A stretch of 42,153 nucleotides of DNA from Acidimicrobiia bacterium (GTDB taxonomy: Bacteria > Actinomycetota > Acidimicrobiia > Spongiisociales > ZC4RG35), in contig JAICGW010000011.1 in assembly GCA_025922945.1 (NCBI GenBank), forward strand, positions 1 to 42,153, written 5' to 3'. Under the pieces are notes generated by a model. That model saw only the letters and a list, made by a program, of their open reading frames with translations, did not search any database and was not told where the DNA came from. Numbering within the stretch: the first letter of the stretch is position 1; every line of letters starts with the position of its first letter. Of this stretch, positions 3,413 to 10,842 are shown piece by piece. Position numbers and translations under genes: made by a program.

Positions 3413-4393
3413 TTAACCGTGCGGCGGACTAGAGACGTTGTCGATCTTCCAGACCTCCCCGCCCAAGGTCACGATGTATGCGGCGTTCTGGATGAATTCA
3501 ACCGAGGTGGGCTGATTTAGCTGGTCGACCACAACGGCGAAAGTGCCGTCGTCATTTACTCGCAAAAGCGCGCCCGTATCAGGCGACGCCGGAGAACCGT
3601 CAGGTCCACCCAGAAAGACCCCCTGCGAGAGTGCGTACAGACTGGCTCCGCGGCCAAACTCAACGTCGACGAGGAGCCTGCCACCCGCGGCCACCTCGAT
3701 TGCGGTCGGGGAATTCGGGCTGAACGACACAACCTTGCCGGTAACGGGCAGATGGGGCACAGGGCCGGCCTCGGCCATATAAACCGTGTTGCCCCGCACC
3801 TCGAGCCCGGTAGGCACGATGTTGCCGAACGCGACCAACTCGGTGACCTCCCCGTCAAGTGTGACCGATAGCACCCGATTGAGGTGCCCATCCGTGACCA
3901 AGAACCCACCACGGAAGGTCTCGAGCGCATACTGGACCCCTGTTGGGACAAAGAAGTCCGTGCTCGGTGGGTGATCGAGCGAGAACGCACCGATATCGGC
4001 AATCACGGTGAAGCTGTCGTGGTCGTCCACCCGATAGATGCCGACCACGTCGCTCCCGCCGACGTCCGGTCCGACCAAGGTGACCAGCACGTAAGCCGTG
4101 CTGCCCATGAACGCGATGTCCATTGCGCCACCGATTCCCACGATCGACTCCGGCAGTCCACTGGCGTAGGTAGTGACCGCACCGGTCGTCGGATCTACCC
4201 GGGAAACCCTCCCGGCGAAGCCCTCGGTGACATACAGTGCCCCATCGGGGCCGACGGTGCTCCCCGAGCCGCCTTCCAAGCCCGAAACCAACAAGGCGGC
4301 ATCCGTCACTTCTGGTGGGACGGCCACCGCAGGAATCGATAGACCCATTACGACGGCCACGACTGAGAGCGTTAGAACTCGTCTCATCTCCAC
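3413..4393 (-). CDS. ScyD/ScyE-family (beta-propeller) secreted protein
   Basis: Signal peptide; GLEGGSGSTVGPDGALYVTEGFAGRVSRVDPTTGAVTTYASGLP and later NHL-like repeats typical of ScyD/ScyE proteins. Confidence 0.7.
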   Translation of the reverse strand: MEMRRVLTLSVVAVVMGLSIPAVAVPPEVTDAALLVSGLEGGSGSTVGPDGALYVTEGFAGRVSRVDPTTGAVTTYASGLPESIVGIGGAMDIAFMGSTAYVLVTLVGPDVGGSDVVGIYRVDDHDSFTVIADIGAFSLDHPPSTDFFVPTGVQYALETFRGGFLVTDGHLNRVLSVTLDGEVTELVAFGNIVPTGLEVRGNTVYMAEAGPVPHLPVTGKVVSFSPNSPTAIEVAAGGRLLVDVEFGRGASLYALSQGVFLGGPDGSPASPDTGALLRVNDDGTFAVVVDQLNQPTSVEFIQNAAYIVTLGGEVWKIDNVSSPPHG

Positions 4394-4535: not shown

Positions 4536-4609
4536 GGGGGTGTAGCTCAGCCCGGCAGAGCGCTTCCCTCGCACGGAAGAAGCCAGGGGTTCAAATCCCC
4601 TCACCTCCA
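4536..4609 (+). tRNA. tRNA-Ala (anticodon CGC)
   Basis: Cloverleaf: acceptor GGGGGTG/CACCTCC with G3:U70, D-arm GCTC..GAGC, anticodon arm CTTCC-CTCGCAC-GGAAG, T-arm AGGGG-TTCAAAT-CCCCT. Confidence 0.93.
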
Positions 4610-4933
4610 CCCCGAAACTCCAATGACGAGAAGGCTTTTCGGCCTCTAAGCGTCGGCGCCCGATTCTCCCGGTATCGGTTTGGTCCGCGTTTCGTCCGCA
4701 TGCCAGCGCGAAATGCTCATTGAGCATCTGGAACTGGCGGACCGTGCCTACATACACCTGGCTGCTCCGCTACCGGCAACAAGGCCCGGTGGGGCTCGTC
4801 AAGAGCGGGTTCGGGGCCCCTCCAGGTCGTCGGAAGCCCCTGTTAGTCGCGCCTCGATCGAGGACGCCACGTCGGCCATGAGGGTCCCACTTTCCGCCGG
4901 CTGCAGACCCTTTGATTGGAGCTCGAGGTCCCC

Positions 4934-4974
4934 TCTTGAGTTTTTCTCAAGTGGCCTTTCGTAACTTCGATCAA
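4934..4974 (+). promoter_or_regulatory. Promoter-like element copy 1: heptamer pair TTGAGTT-N4-TCAAGTG (11-bp period), 8 bp, TAACTT
   Basis: 32/41 identical to copy 2 at exactly +215 bp; contains dyad CTTGAG-N5-CTCAAG. Confidence 0.5.
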
Positions 4975-5148: not shown

Positions 5149-5189
5149 TCTTGAGCTGTTCTCGAGTCGCCTTACGTATCTTTGCCCAA
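5149..5189 (+). promoter_or_regulatory. Promoter-like element copy 2: TTGAGCT-N4-TCGAGTC (11-bp period), 8 bp, TATCTT, directly before the SARP-kinase-NTPase gene
   Basis: Repeat of 4934-4974; spacing matches SARP binding-site architecture. Confidence 0.5.
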
Positions 5190-5196
5190 GACGGCG

Positions 5197-8100
5197 ATGA
5201 CGACAGTTCTCGATTCCGCAACCGAGGTGACGATCCCCATTCGCGTGCTGGGCCCGGTCACCATCGTGACCGAGGAAGGGACTGCTCAGCTGGGAGGTCC
5301 GAAGCAGCGAGCGGTGCTGGCGATGCTGATCACAAAACTGGGGAAGGTGGTTACCACCGACGAATTGGTGGACGGAATTTGGGGAGAGGATCCACCCCCA
5401 GCGGTCCTCTCCTCGATTCATACCTATGTCTCCAACCTCCGAGCCACCGTCGGGCGTCCCCTCGATCGCCAGGGCAGCGGCTACCGACTTGAGGCCCCCC
5501 GCGCCGACGTGGATTGCTATCGCTTCGAGGATCAGGTCGCCGCCGCGCGGGTGAATCTGGCTACCAACCCCAGTACGGCGAGCGTCAATCTGCGGCAGGC
5601 GCTGGCGCTTTGGAGCGGGCGTGCCTATTCCGACGTGGTCAGGTTTCCGGGACTGGCGATCGAAGCGACCCGGCTCGAAGAATCCCGACTGTCGGCAGTG
5701 GAAGCTCGGATCGAGGCCGACCTCGCCCTCGGCAAGCACGGTTCACTGGTGGGCGAACTCGATGCCCTGGCGGCCGAATATCCCCTTCGCGAGTCGCTCC
5801 GAGCCAAACACATGTTGGCGCTCTATCGGGATGGACGCCAGGCCGACGCTCTTCGTGCGTATCGCCGAACTCAGGATTATCTGAGGGAGGAGCTCGGGGT
5901 TCATCCTTCTGCTGAGCTATCCGAGCTTGAGGAGCGAATCCTCAATCACGACTACTCGCTGATCCACAGCCGGGAAGTGGTCAGCGAACAGATCGCCCTC
6001 CTCTTTACTGACATCGTCGATTCGACTCTGCTGTGGGAGACCAACCCAACGGCAATGCAGGCGGCGCTGTCCCGTCACGACCATTTGGTCCAGTCAGCAG
6101 TAGAGGCCAATGGCGGAACTGTCATCAAAGGATTGGGCGACGGATTCATCGCCGCATTTGCTGAGGCCTCGCTTGCGGCCCAGGCGGCGATGGCAGCTCA
6201 GCAGGCGATCCTCGCCAGCGATTGGAGTCCGGTTGAGCTGAGAGTGAGGATGGTGGTCGACACCGGTGAGGTCGAGCGACGGGGCGGAGACCTGTTCGGA
6301 ACGGCGATGAACCGCGGCTCCCGTCTTCTCAACGCCGGCCACGGAGGGCAGATCCTTTTGTCGGACGATGCCCAGAAAGCTCTGACCCGCGATGCCGGCA
6401 CCCAAGTCAAGAGCCTGGGCGAGCATCGGTTCCGGGGCCTGGGCCGTCCTCAGGCGGTCCATCAACTAGTGGCCGACGGACTTCCCGCCAGCTTTCCCCC
6501 GCTTAACACCTCGGGGGCTTCGATCGAGCTCGACCGCAGCTTCGGCGACTCGATTCGCGGTTACGAGCTTCGAGAAAGAGTTGGACGGGGAGCCTTTGCC
6601 ACCGTCTATCGGGGATACCAACCCGCGATCGGCCGCGAGGTGGCGATAAAGATCGTCAAGCCCGAGTTCGCCAACCATCCCGCGTTCATCCGCCAGTTCG
6701 AATCCGAGGCTCGATTCGTCGCTTCGCTCGAACATCCCCACATTGTCTCCGTCTATGACTATTGGCGGGATGCAGATGGGGCTTACGTCGTTGGTCCATT
6801 CATGGTTGGGCGCAGCCTGGCCGACGCGACGTTTGCCACGATGCCTTTGGCCCAGGTGATCAAGATCGCCTCGCAGGTCGGCTCGGCCCTGTCTTACGCC
6901 CACCGGCAGGGAGTGGTTCACCGCGACGTCAAGCCGGCCAACATCCTTTTGGATGGAGACGGCAACGCCTATTTGTCCGATTTCGGAATCGCTGCTCGGG
7001 CGGTCGAAGAAGCTACCGGCATCCAGTCGAAGTCGATTGGATACCGTGCTCCCGAGGATCGCCGCGGGCAGGCAGTCGATGTTCGCTCCGATCTTTACGG
7101 ACTGGCGGCGGTGGTCGCCCGGCTCCTCCTCGGGGTGCCTCCGGATCATGTCGACCTGAGCCTCGTCGACGAACGGGTGCGGGACGTCCTCGCCCGAGGC
7201 CTGGCCGGCGACCCTGCGGACCGCTACGAGAGCGTCGATGAGTTTCTCGAACACCTCCTGTCCCGGGCCGGGGGAACGGCCGTGGCGCTTGCCTCGATCC
7301 ACCGCCGCAACCCCTACAAGGGCCTGGCCGCGTTCGATCAACGGGACGCCCCTGATTTCTTCGGCCGTTCCGAGGAGATCGGGCGCTTGGTTCACATGGT
7401 TCGCCAGAACCGGCTCTCAGCAGTGGTAGGCCCCTCCGGATCGGGCAAGTCCTCGCTTACCTTGGCCGGCCTGCTACCGGCGCTAGACGCCGGCGCCGTA
7501 TCGGGATCAGAGAGCTGGGTGGCGGTGCGGGCGGTGCCCGGGGGCTATCCCTTCGACGAGCTCGCCACCTCCCTGGCCGCCTTCTCCACCCAACCGCTTT
7601 CGGAACTCGCCACCGAACTCTCCGCCCCCGATGGAAAGGGACTTCTGAGGGCGGCCAAACGGATCGGCCAGGAACTTGCCGGCGAGTTGGTGATTGTGAT
7701 CGACCAATACGAGGAGCTGTTCACGCTCGTTGCGGACGAGGACGTTCGCAACGCCTTCGCCACCACCTTGGTAACGGCGGCGTCGGACCCCGTAAGCCGG
7801 GTCAGGGTGGTGCTGACGCTGAGAGCGGACTTTTTTCACCAGGTTCTCGGCCAACCGATCCTGGGACAGATAATCGGCCGGGCCCACTTGGCGTTGGCGC
7901 CCCTCGACGCCGACGGCATTCGGTTGGCCATCGTCGAGCCGGCCGCCCGGGCCGGTCTCCAATTCGAACCGGGCCTGCCCGAACGGATTGTGGCCGACCT
8001 CAGGAACCAACCGGGAAGCCTGCCGTTGCTTCAGTTCACCCTCGACCGCCTGGCGACGAAGGCGTCCGAAGGTTTGATTACCGACCGCCACTACATGGAG

Positions 8101-10842
8101 CTGGGAGGGGTCAAAGGAGCACTGGCCGAGCGCGCCGAGGCGATCTTTGCTGGGCTGACCGGCAGCCAGAAGCACGCGGCGCAGCAGGTTTTCACCCGGC
8201 TCCTTTTGGTTTCCGAAGAGGCTGACGACGTCCGTCGTCGGGTGAGGATGACCGAGCTCGAATCACTCGGCCTCCCACCAGATGACCTAGCCACCCTGGT
8301 CGAAAAGTTTGGAAAGGAGCGCTTGCTCACCTTCGATGTCGACTCCGTCACGAGAGGGGCCACAGTCGAGGTCGCCCACGAAGCCCTACTCCGGGAATGG
8401 CCCACGCTCCGCAACTGGGTCGACACCCGGCGGGAATCTCTGATTCTCCAGCGCCGCTTCCACGCCGCCTTCGACGAATGGGAGGAATCGGGCCAGCATC
8501 CATCGAGCCTGCTCACCGGCGGCAAGCTCATCCAGTACCAGGAGTGGGCGAGCGGCAAGGACGTCACGCTGACTACCGCCGAAAGTGAGTTTCTCGGAAG
8601 GTCGATCGATCAGGCCGCATCTGATGCGCGAACTCGTATCACTCTGCGTCGCCGGATCATGGTCGGATTCGCCGTTGCCGCGATGATCGCCATTGTGTTG
8701 GCCGTGCTCGCGTTCCTCCAGCGAGGCGCGGCGGAGCGCCATGCCGCGATTGCCGAGGCTCGCGAACTAGTTCTCGAAGCCGACCGGGCGGTGGCGACCG
8801 ACCCCGAGCTCAGCGTGCTCCTATCCCTGGAAGCGATCGAAGCCTTCCGCGCTGCTGGCGAGGAGCCGTCGCCAAGCGCTATCGGGACCATGAGGCGCGG
8901 AATCAACGAGTCGGTGGTCTCGCAGCGCTTCCCAGGCGGCGGGTTTGTGGCGGTCAGCCCGGACGGCGCCTACCTGGCCACCAGGGGTGGGGGTGCCAGC
9001 GTGGCGGTTTGGAACCTGACTACCGGGAAGGTTGTGCAGGAATTGATACGTTCGGACGGGTCGCCCATCGATGCCCGGTTCGCGTCAGGCGACACTCTCG
9101 CTGTGGCATACAGCGGCGTCCCGCGAGCATTACGGGTCTGGGAGTGGCGCACCGGAGCCAGCGTCGACCTCGGGGGCGAAACGCCCTTGCCTGAAGGGCC
9201 TGCAGTCGCCAGTCTTCTCCAGATCGACCGCCAACTCGGGCTTGCCACTGTTCGGCACGGCTCGAACTCCGGATTCGAGGTGTGGGATCTGAACCGCCAA
9301 GAGCGCCGGTTCATCGAGGACTCGTCGGTGCCCGGGATCTTTCTGTGGCCGTCGTTTTTCCCGGATGGACGGCTCGCGTTTTTGGACTTCCCCAACGACG
9401 CTATTGAGAGCTGGATAATCCGAATCGTCGACTCCACGACCGGCGAGCAGTCCAAGACTGTGGTGGTTGATTGGGGCGACCAGCCCGAGTTCATCCCAGG
9501 GTCCATTTCCGTCTCGCCCGACGGGTCCTGGGCTGCGATCTATGACCAGGAGCAAATCGCGTTGGTCGATCTCGCTAGCGGAAAAGCGCTTTGGGTCAAC
9601 GATGGGCTCACCCGGACAGCTTCGGCACTGTGGCTCCCCGACGGCGAGCATCTATTCGTCGGTGGTGAAGTGGCTCCGAGTGTGCTGCGGGCCCTGGACG
9701 GTGAGGCAATCCGTCAGCTCCAAGGAGGTGCCCGCGGCGGCACCTATTCGCACGACCTTGTTCCTGGAACCGACCAGGTGGCGGCGGCAGGAGTGAGCAG
9801 CTTGGAAACGGTCATCTTCGACCTGGCGCCCGTGCGCTCCGACCTTCCGACACGAGGCTCTCAGTTTCGCAAACTCACTCACCTCGGATTTGTGGGAAAT
9901 GGTGACCGGCTGGCGGTCTCGGACCTGGAGTCGAGTGCCGTTATCGACGCTTTTACGGGCGAAGTGATCGATAGAAGGCCGGGCGCCGAACCCGCATGGT
10001 TTGCCTGGGGGATCCCTTTCTTCTCACGCGGGGGTGATTATGCGGCGGGTCCCGACGCCGAAGGACGGTCGACCGCGTGGTCCAACCTCGATCAGCGTGT
10101 GATTTACACCGCCCCCGACGGTTGGGGTGTTCAAGGGATCAGCAGCGACGGCACTCTGGCGGTGATAGTTGGTGGGGGACAGGATTGGAATGAAACGGCG
10201 AGCCAGCTAATCAGGACATCAGACGGGTCAGTGGTGGCCGAGCTCGAGGTGGAGGGCTGGTCGCTGCAATCCGTCTTCTCACCTGATAACAAAATGGTTC
10301 TGACGGACCTGCGGCCCAACTTGCGCATCTGGGATACCTCAAACGGTGCTCTATTGCGTGAGATCGAGTCCAATGTGATCGATGTCACCAGCTTCACACA
10401 GGCGTTCACACCCGACGGTTCGATACTCGTGGCCGGAACACAGACCGGTTCGATCCTCATACTCGATATGGAAGGCCTTCTCGCCGGCCTACCTACCGAA
10501 GAGGCGGTCCTTCGCCAGATTCCGGCGCACACCACGTTCATAAACCAAGTCCTGTTGTCCCCCGACGGGTCGATGATCCTCAGTCGGGCCCAAGATGAAC
10601 CGGTGAAGCTGTGGGACCTTGACACTGGGGAGAAGCTGGGCGAGTTCGACACGGATGGCTTCAGGTTCGGGGCCTTTCATCCCACCGAACCCCTGCTCTA
10701 TATAGCGCTCCCTGACGACCGGATCGGCATTTACACGCTCGACACCGACCAGTTAGTCGAGATCGCTCGCTCCCGCCTCACCCGGGAGCTCACGGCGGAG
10801 GAATGTCAGTTGTACCTGCGGCGAAGCTGCGCTCTTCAATAG
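5197..10842 (+). CDS. Multi-module signalling protein: SARP/BTAD transcriptional activator + class III nucleotide cyclase + Ser/Thr protein kinase + nSTAND NTPase + TM + WD40 propeller
   Basis: SARP wHTH (LGGPKQRAVLAMLI...VSNLRATVG); cyclase (LLFTDIVDSTLLWE, KGLGDGFIAAF); STK (VAIKIVK, HRDVKPANILL, DFGIA); nSTAND Walker A GPSGSGKSS and Walker B LVIVIDQYEELF; TM IMVGFAVAAMIAIVLAVLAFL; WD-type SPDG/VWNL repeats. ATG at 5197; TTG at 5182 possible. Confidence 0.92.
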   Translation: MTTVLDSATEVTIPIRVLGPVTIVTEEGTAQLGGPKQRAVLAMLITKLGKVVTTDELVDGIWGEDPPPAVLSSIHTYVSNLRATVGRPLDRQGSGYRLEAPRADVDCYRFEDQVAAARVNLATNPSTASVNLRQALALWSGRAYSDVVRFPGLAIEATRLEESRLSAVEARIEADLALGKHGSLVGELDALAAEYPLRESLRAKHMLALYRDGRQADALRAYRRTQDYLREELGVHPSAELSELEERILNHDYSLIHSREVVSEQIALLFTDIVDSTLLWETNPTAMQAALSRHDHLVQSAVEANGGTVIKGLGDGFIAAFAEASLAAQAAMAAQQAILASDWSPVELRVRMVVDTGEVERRGGDLFGTAMNRGSRLLNAGHGGQILLSDDAQKALTRDAGTQVKSLGEHRFRGLGRPQAVHQLVADGLPASFPPLNTSGASIELDRSFGDSIRGYELRERVGRGAFATVYRGYQPAIGREVAIKIVKPEFANHPAFIRQFESEARFVASLEHPHIVSVYDYWRDADGAYVVGPFMVGRSLADATFATMPLAQVIKIASQVGSALSYAHRQGVVHRDVKPANILLDGDGNAYLSDFGIAARAVEEATGIQSKSIGYRAPEDRRGQAVDVRSDLYGLAAVVARLLLGVPPDHVDLSLVDERVRDVLARGLAGDPADRYESVDEFLEHLLSRAGGTAVALASIHRRNPYKGLAAFDQRDAPDFFGRSEEIGRLVHMVRQNRLSAVVGPSGSGKSSLTLAGLLPALDAGAVSGSESWVAVRAVPGGYPFDELATSLAAFSTQPLSELATELSAPDGKGLLRAAKRIGQELAGELVIVIDQYEELFTLVADEDVRNAFATTLVTAASDPVSRVRVVLTLRADFFHQVLGQPILGQIIGRAHLALAPLDADGIRLAIVEPAARAGLQFEPGLPERIVADLRNQPGSLPLLQFTLDRLATKASEGLITDRHYMELGGVKGALAERAEAIFAGLTGSQKHAAQQVFTRLLLVSEEADDVRRRVRMTELESLGLPPDDLATLVEKFGKERLLTFDVDSVTRGATVEVAHEALLREWPTLRNWVDTRRESLILQRRFHAAFDEWEESGQHPSSLLTGGKLIQYQEWASGKDVTLTTAESEFLGRSIDQAASDARTRITLRRRIMVGFAVAAMIAIVLAVLAFLQRGAAERHAAIAEARELVLEADRAVATDPELSVLLSLEAIEAFRAAGEEPSPSAIGTMRRGINESVVSQRFPGGGFVAVSPDGAYLATRGGGASVAVWNLTTGKVVQELIRSDGSPIDARFASGDTLAVAYSGVPRALRVWEWRTGASVDLGGETPLPEGPAVASLLQIDRQLGLATVRHGSNSGFEVWDLNRQERRFIEDSSVPGIFLWPSFFPDGRLAFLDFPNDAIESWIIRIVDSTTGEQSKTVVVDWGDQPEFIPGSISVSPDGSWAAIYDQEQIALVDLASGKALWVNDGLTRTASALWLPDGEHLFVGGEVAPSVLRALDGEAIRQLQGGARGGTYSHDLVPGTDQVAAAGVSSLETVIFDLAPVRSDLPTRGSQFRKLTHLGFVGNGDRLAVSDLESSAVIDAFTGEVIDRRPGAEPAWFAWGIPFFSRGGDYAAGPDAEGRSTAWSNLDQRVIYTAPDGWGVQGISSDGTLAVIVGGGQDWNETASQLIRTSDGSVVAELEVEGWSLQSVFSPDNKMVLTDLRPNLRIWDTSNGALLREIESNVIDVTSFTQAFTPDGSILVAGTQTGSILILDMEGLLAGLPTEEAVLRQIPAHTTFINQVLLSPDGSMILSRAQDEPVKLWDLDTGEKLGEFDTDGFRFGAFHPTEPLLYIALPDDRIGIYTLDTDQLVEIARSRLTRELTAEECQLYLRRSCALQ

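Follow-up and report, generated by a model that had tools for sequence, protein, structure and literature searches.

A predicted membrane-anchored receptor combining SARP, nucleotide cyclase, kinase and STAND modules in a single chain

One gene in the window (the whole 42,153-nucleotide stretch of DNA analysed) encoded a polypeptide in which a SARP winged helix, a BTAD domain, a class III cyclase, a Ser/Thr kinase, an nSTAND1 NTPase, a transmembrane (TM) helix and a tandem propeller followed each other from the N- to the C-terminus (Pfam). Taken as a whole, it is reasonably likely to be a signalling receptor in a single membrane-anchored chain, with a STAND switch as its basis, and it is likely that it acts as a SARP activator tethered to the membrane and controlled by its STAND module. 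The module order had been proposed in an earlier sequence-only reading and was borne out, all the named modules being recognised in that order. The features of the gene were as follows:

5197-10842, + strand: coding sequence of the multi-module receptor (open reading frame; homologue L073 60% identical over the full length; alternative start TTG 5182)
5239-5490, + strand: SARP (OmpR/ToxR-type) winged-helix DNA-binding domain (Pfam Trans_reg_C, AfsR structure match)
5509-5943, + strand: BTAD domain (Pfam)
5986-6483, + strand: class III nucleotide cyclase domain (Pfam, catalytic residues)
6553-7251, + strand: PknB/PknI-like Ser/Thr kinase domain (Pfam, catalytic residues, structure match)
7312-8502, + strand: nSTAND1 NTPase (Pfam, Walker A K756, Walker B D841)
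8656-8718, + strand: predicted single TM helix, N-in/C-out (TM and K/R bias in 41 of 41 homologues)
8917-10737, + strand: tandem beta-propeller, WD40-type (about 53 strands in the model; fastest-diverging module)
10804-10830, + strand: Cys1875 and Cys1883, conserved cysteines of the C-terminal ECxxY..C motif (the sole two after the TM helix)

The frame was single and uninterrupted on the + strand, from TTG 5182 or ATG 5197 to 10842 (1886 or 1881 amino acids); residues are numbered here from the TTG. The TTG previously taken as the start did lie in the open frame, but ATG 5197 is the likelier start, because the -10 element (5177-5182) of the promoter box described below overlaps the TTG. The search for homologues with the same module order showed it to be recurrent within one taxonomic order, on about 20 independent contigs, and a frameshift or an assembly chimaera of the window gene was ruled out because these contigs shared the identical order.

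Trans_reg_C matched residues 39-92 (Pfam, 2e-7) and BTAD residues 110-254 (Pfam, 1e-43), the arrangement by which SARPs are defined (an OmpR-type winged helix at the N-terminus, then BTAD). The N-terminal model matched the cryo-EM structure of AfsR with a TM-score of 0.93 (normalised to the AfsR fragment) and 41% identity; Thr81 corresponded to Thr88 of AfsR, and Asn85 replaced its Arg92. One family member, L084, carried about 330 extra in-frame residues ahead of the SARP domain (L084:2032). Streptomyces AfsR shares with the window protein the SARP winged helix and BTAD followed by a STAND NTPase, as well as the promoter grammar, but it has NB-ARC and TPR parts and lacks the TM helix, cyclase, kinase and propeller; in the window protein the cyclase and kinase were placed between BTAD and nSTAND1. 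The NCBIfam AfsR equivalog gave 189 bits (cut-off 1430) with the match stopping at residue 258, which leaves the protein outside AfsR proper. AfsR is autoinhibited by its own STAND part, relieved by ATP and modulated via phosphorylation by a separate kinase (PMC10936776), and SARP-NB-ARC and SARP-LAL forms are known (PMC10972967).

Two copies of a direct repeat were present upstream of the gene, the second ending just ahead of ATG 5197:

4934-4974, + strand: 41-bp direct repeat, upstream copy (SARP box TTGAG-N6-TCAAG at 4936-4951, -10-like TAACTT at 4962-4967)
5149-5189, + strand: 41-bp direct repeat, downstream copy (SARP box TTGAG-N6-TCGAG at 5151-5166, -10-like TATCTT at 5177-5182)

Both copies contained TYRAG-N6-TYRAG, followed exactly 10 nt on by TANNNT. 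SARP promoters are characterised by 11-bp repeats, with the 3' repeat 8 bp from the -10 element (PMC10936776), and the predicted operators conformed to this rule, since 8 bp remain before the -10 if two further bases are counted with TYRAG to make the heptamer. This box and TANNNT arrangement was also found upstream of L011, L074, L078 and L104, and with one mismatch upstream of L024, L027 and L073. Of 46 upstream regions, 9 contained TYRAG-N6-TYRAG, where about 0.4 were expected (P about 4e-10, a guide only, the sequences being related), in most cases with TANNNT exactly 10 nt later. The full pattern had three exact matches in the 2.56-Mb genome, two of them before the window gene, and none in the reversed control; one-mismatch matches in the genome showed no excess over the control. 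Across the relatives searched and the window genome there were 10 matches, 6 of which fell in promoters of the receptor gene family. Chance occurrence of the box was ruled out by the upstream enrichment, the genome and control counts and the family-promoter matches, and a palindromic operator (CTTGAG-N5-CTCAAG) was rejected, L011, L074 and L104 having direct TCAAG repeats. A scan for sigma-70 promoters and terminators upstream of the window gene found none.

The third exact box (G000:C2:8894-8925; L112:4895-4926) lay ahead of a 220-aa ORF (L112:4954-5616), whose product was anchored in the membrane by its N-terminus and matched SnoaL/NTF2-like proteins weakly, below the cut-off; its paralogues in the genome formed a tandem pair on contig C44. 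No relative of this gene was found beside any of the receptor homologues, and a conserved neighbour as SARP target was therefore discarded. The window gene is probably autoregulated, with at least one distant predicted target, because the box stood twice before it, had three exact matches in the genome and recurred before homologues; as a point against the receptor reading, the strict box was present in just those 9 of the 46 homologues. With boxes of SARP grammar before its own gene, the membrane-tethered activator suggested earlier was supported as the simplest reading.

The TM helix was the sole strong hydrophobic peak of the protein, starting at about residue 1159-1161 (KD 2.9). A hydrophobic helix was present about 50-70 residues past the NTPase in all 41 homologues reaching far enough, each with an excess of K/R on the N side (means of 7.0 inside vs. 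2.4 outside). Cysteines after the TM helix were even in number (2, 4, 6 or 8) in 32 of the 32 homologues with a complete C-terminus, compared with 15 of 30 for cysteines before it, counts which come from related sequences and carry no formal probability; the C-terminal ECxxY...C motif was near-invariant. The propeller is probably exported and disulfide-bonded, because of the even cysteine counts and the positive-inside charge. The proposal of a single TM helix with cytoplasmic effectors and an outside propeller thus gained computational support, and there is strong computational support for a DNA-binding domain inside, a single TM helix and a predicted outside sensor in the manner of CadC/ToxR. 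We know of no cyclase, kinase or STAND module in CadC or ToxR, one-component membrane activators. The layout predicted for the window protein resembles theirs: an OmpR/ToxR-type winged helix inside, a single TM helix and a sensor outside (as outlined in PMC5430869). A chromosome-bound membrane protein is topologically demanding, which counts against a tethered activator, though CadC and ToxR manage it.

nSTAND1 covered residues 711-1107 (Pfam, 2e-111) with Walker A and Walker B (DQYEELF) both present, as expected of a member of the family; a PDB sequence search with the NTPase gave no match. The C-terminus, described earlier as WD40-like, did have a propeller fold, but WD40-type propeller families were confined to a small patch (about residues 1680-1860, Pfam), and the remainder was apparent from the model of residues 704-1886 (mean pLDDT 86), whose approximately 53 strands in the propeller region are consistent with two seven-bladed propellers. 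The best PDB match of the C-terminal half was full-length Apaf-1 (Foldseek), the domains matching piecewise (global TM-score 0.35). Apaf-1 also has a STAND NTPase followed by tandem propellers, but it is soluble and carries a CARD, whereas in the window protein the TM helix separates switch from propeller.

The catalytic residues had been described as intact, and all those checked were present in the cyclase, kinase and NTPase. The cyclase (Guanylate_cyc, residues 269-421, Pfam, 4e-11) had the residues required of class III enzymes: D277 and D320 for metal binding, K316 and D370 for base recognition, and N377 and R381 for the transition state. The closest solved cyclase was mycobacterial Ma1120, which likewise recognises the base with a K/D pair; ATP would be the expected substrate, and cAMP the product, because of this shared pair. 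The cyclase is slightly favoured to be catalytically active. The kinase (Pkinase, residues 461-655, Pfam, 2e-39), whose model matched PknI/PknB structures, had the full Hanks-type set (K490, alpha-C E509, HR581D582, D600FG and APE), and it is fairly likely to be active. Activity is not to be assumed, since the close relative L073 was already altered: despite 60% identity to the window protein, its cyclase had FTE (Glu at a metal position) and ELFG, and its kinase HLD where HRD is expected. L078 kept all catalytic residues (72% identical to the window protein in the cyclase and 78% in the kinase); by sequence, these two proteins belong to the intact-enzyme side of the family.

The survey of this family covered 99 relatives, a sample of 395 genomes of the class and one of 397 genomes of the phylum, with matches classified by domain. 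The BTAD-cyclase-kinase fusion was present in 21 of the 395 class genomes (including the window genome), all belonging to the window's taxonomic order, and in two phylum-sample genomes outside the class; a genome-collection scan with a single sequence returned just one relative, apparently the same contig as one in G005. Domain mapping of the loci gave 23 uncut rows with the full SARP-BTAD-cyclase-kinase-nSTAND1-TM-propeller order, besides some cut at the 3' end, and 11 of a sister form without the cyclase. Cyclase-kinase-nSTAND1 forms with no recognisable SARP-BTAD were L093 (N-terminal, about 238 aa), L094 and L028. Tandem copies were seen (L079, L080), with tandem or multiple paralogues in genomes G064, G016 and G644.

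Key residues of the NTPase were identical in 46 of 46 relatives, apart from one conservative E-to-D change, while those of the cyclase were intact in 10 and degenerate in 17 of 27, and those of the kinase intact in 20 and degenerate in 21 of 41. Switch and activator together look like the family core, because the NTPase is invariant while cyclase and kinase are often degenerate; across the family, the sensor propeller appears to diverge fastest and the enzymes to be frequently lost. Pseudo-cyclases and pseudo-kinases were observed in otherwise full-length members (L079, L080, L084-L092, L096-L097, L101-L106) with invariant NTPase motifs, and the kinase activation segment was deleted in several pseudo-kinase members. 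As for a single origin of the cyclase fusion, the NTPase tree needed 2 changes (one-clade test, p-AU 0.067), and in the cyclase tree intact and degenerate copies split apart on long branches. A test for correlated loss of cyclase and kinase among the relatives had too few independent pairs. A Deinococcus plasmid (NZ_CP026517.1, 132401-134697) contained a kinase-nSTAND match with 45% identity in segments of residues 450-1139, which suggests that the kinase-STAND pair may be older or mobile.

In the mechanism proposed for the tethered receptor, autoinhibition would be released when the exported propeller meets a ligand or partner, after which the NTPase would exchange nucleotide and oligomerise, as does Apaf-1 and as is presumed for STAND proteins generally. 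Oligomerisation would gather the N-terminal modules of neighbouring chains; the SARP domains would pair side by side on the 11-bp direct repeats and recruit RNA polymerase, activating the receptor's own two promoter boxes and the gene for the membrane-anchored SnoaL-like protein. Where a lineage has kept its enzymes intact, as that of the window has, clustering might also complete the dimeric cyclase active site (cAMP being expected) and allow kinase trans-phosphorylation, a plausible substrate being the STAND/SARP part of the kinase's own chain or of a neighbour. As kinase and STAND-SARP share a chain, control may operate inside the complex. Clustering as the common trigger of the outputs is conceivable, with the balance leaning a little against it; it was borrowed from Apaf-1, since the oligomeric state of AfsR was unchanged by ATP in vitro (PMC10936776). 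The idea that one molecule links sensing, cAMP, phosphorylation and DNA binding stood as far as the modules are concerned, but cAMP and phosphorylation were not established as essential outputs, the enzymes decaying in relatives. Neither activity would be needed for the core function, because one or other enzyme is inactive in many relatives.

This decay is also the basis of a serious, if tentative, alternative, in which cyclase and kinase are kept mainly as dimerisation or spacer folds and the STAND switch and SARP output alone matter, in the window genome too. The degenerate cyclases and kinases beside an undegenerate NTPase fit it, as do the sister forms without a cyclase and the failure of Pfam to recognise the cyclase in 15 of 26 N-terminal halves (11 of 26 recognised, compared with 26 of 26 for the kinase). 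On the other hand, the catalytic residues were all intact in the window protein, L078 and several other members, and between the window protein and L073 the cyclase and kinase were as conserved as the NTPase (73, 74 and 72% identity), with the propeller at 44%. In the strongest form of the preferred receptor reading, which is rather unlikely, a single oligomerisation event driven by a ligand would turn on promoter activation by the tethered SARP dimer, cAMP synthesis and phosphorylation together, with positive autoregulation and the enzymes later lost one by one around a retained switch; if true, this would be a bacterial transmembrane Apaf-1-like receptor with three simultaneous outputs.

A receptor for biological conflict (phage defence or kin recognition), whose propeller senses a foreign molecule and whose N-terminal modules serve as alarm or effector outputs, is improbable. 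Systems coupling NTPases to swappable effectors, including kinases and often inactive cyclases, have been described (PMC7159879; PMC10907252), and the multiple paralogues in several genomes (G064, G016, G644), the fast-diverging sensor and plasmid nSTAND-WD40 relatives annotated with HTH or trypsin-like domains would suit such a role. The window gene matched no defence-specific model, its PADLOC matches being generic kinase ones, and no defence gene was recognised next to it, so that it does not qualify as an anti-phage STAND; moreover, what the N-terminus provides is a conserved activator of transcription that has promoter boxes of its own, and the sensor is predicted outside, away from where phage proteins accumulate. 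Proteolytic activation, in which regulated cleavage near the TM helix would let the SARP-cyclase-kinase-STAND part go as a soluble fragment able to diffuse to DNA, is quite doubtful: the in-frame TGA of L097 just before the TM helix would give such a product, but the helix was retained in 41 of 41 homologues and the stop may be an error or mark an inactive gene, because near-identical L096 lacks it (L097:4207-4209, between NTPase and TM helix, read as Arg in L096).

Several parts of the tethered receptor are known from other systems. AfsK-type membrane Ser/Thr kinases share a kinase with a C-terminal propeller and membrane association but, unlike the window protein, have PQQ-type repeats and no STAND (NCBIfam AfsK model 47 bits, cut-off 1300); since AfsK phosphorylates AfsR (PMC1262709), the window protein resembles an AfsK-AfsR pair in one chain. 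A kinase-cyclase combination is found in Myxococcus PKN2 (PMC1262709). The TOMM system kinase/cyclase fusion protein (TIGR03903) likewise has kinase and cyclase in one chain, but the kinase part alone of the window protein matched it (80 bits, cut-off 706), which places the protein outside that group. To our knowledge, the TOMM fusion has no SARP, TM helix or propeller. In nSTAND1-WD40 proteins of Streptomyces and cyanobacteria, nSTAND1 likewise precedes a long propeller, with 25-29% identity to the window protein over residues 705-1878, but their N-termini are annotated as HTH or trypsin-like peptidase rather than SARP-cyclase-kinase. BTAD and nSTAND1 named together, or the full combination, were not found in the literature searched, which included few subscription journals; domain databases may list it. 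With SARP-STAND, kinase-propeller, kinase-cyclase and nSTAND1-WD40 pairs already known, their combination in one chain would be a variant of AfsR-type SARP-STAND regulators.

It would gather into one chain every step between an outside signal and the promoter, a path usually split over receptor, kinase, second-messenger enzyme and regulator (e.g. AfsK/AfsR), and it suggests transmembrane receptors as one form that large SARPs can take. The natural series of intact and decayed cyclases and kinases around an invariant switch makes directly testable which output a STAND receptor needs, and the operators predicted at the receptor gene itself (two autoregulatory boxes) and at one other gene would make the SARP output measurable without knowledge of the ligand. 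Upstream in the window, a gene on the - strand (3413-4393) coded for a secreted protein of the ScyD/ScyE family (NCBIfam 107 bits, cut-off 80); it was oriented away from the receptor gene and separated from it by a tRNA-Ala (4536-4611).
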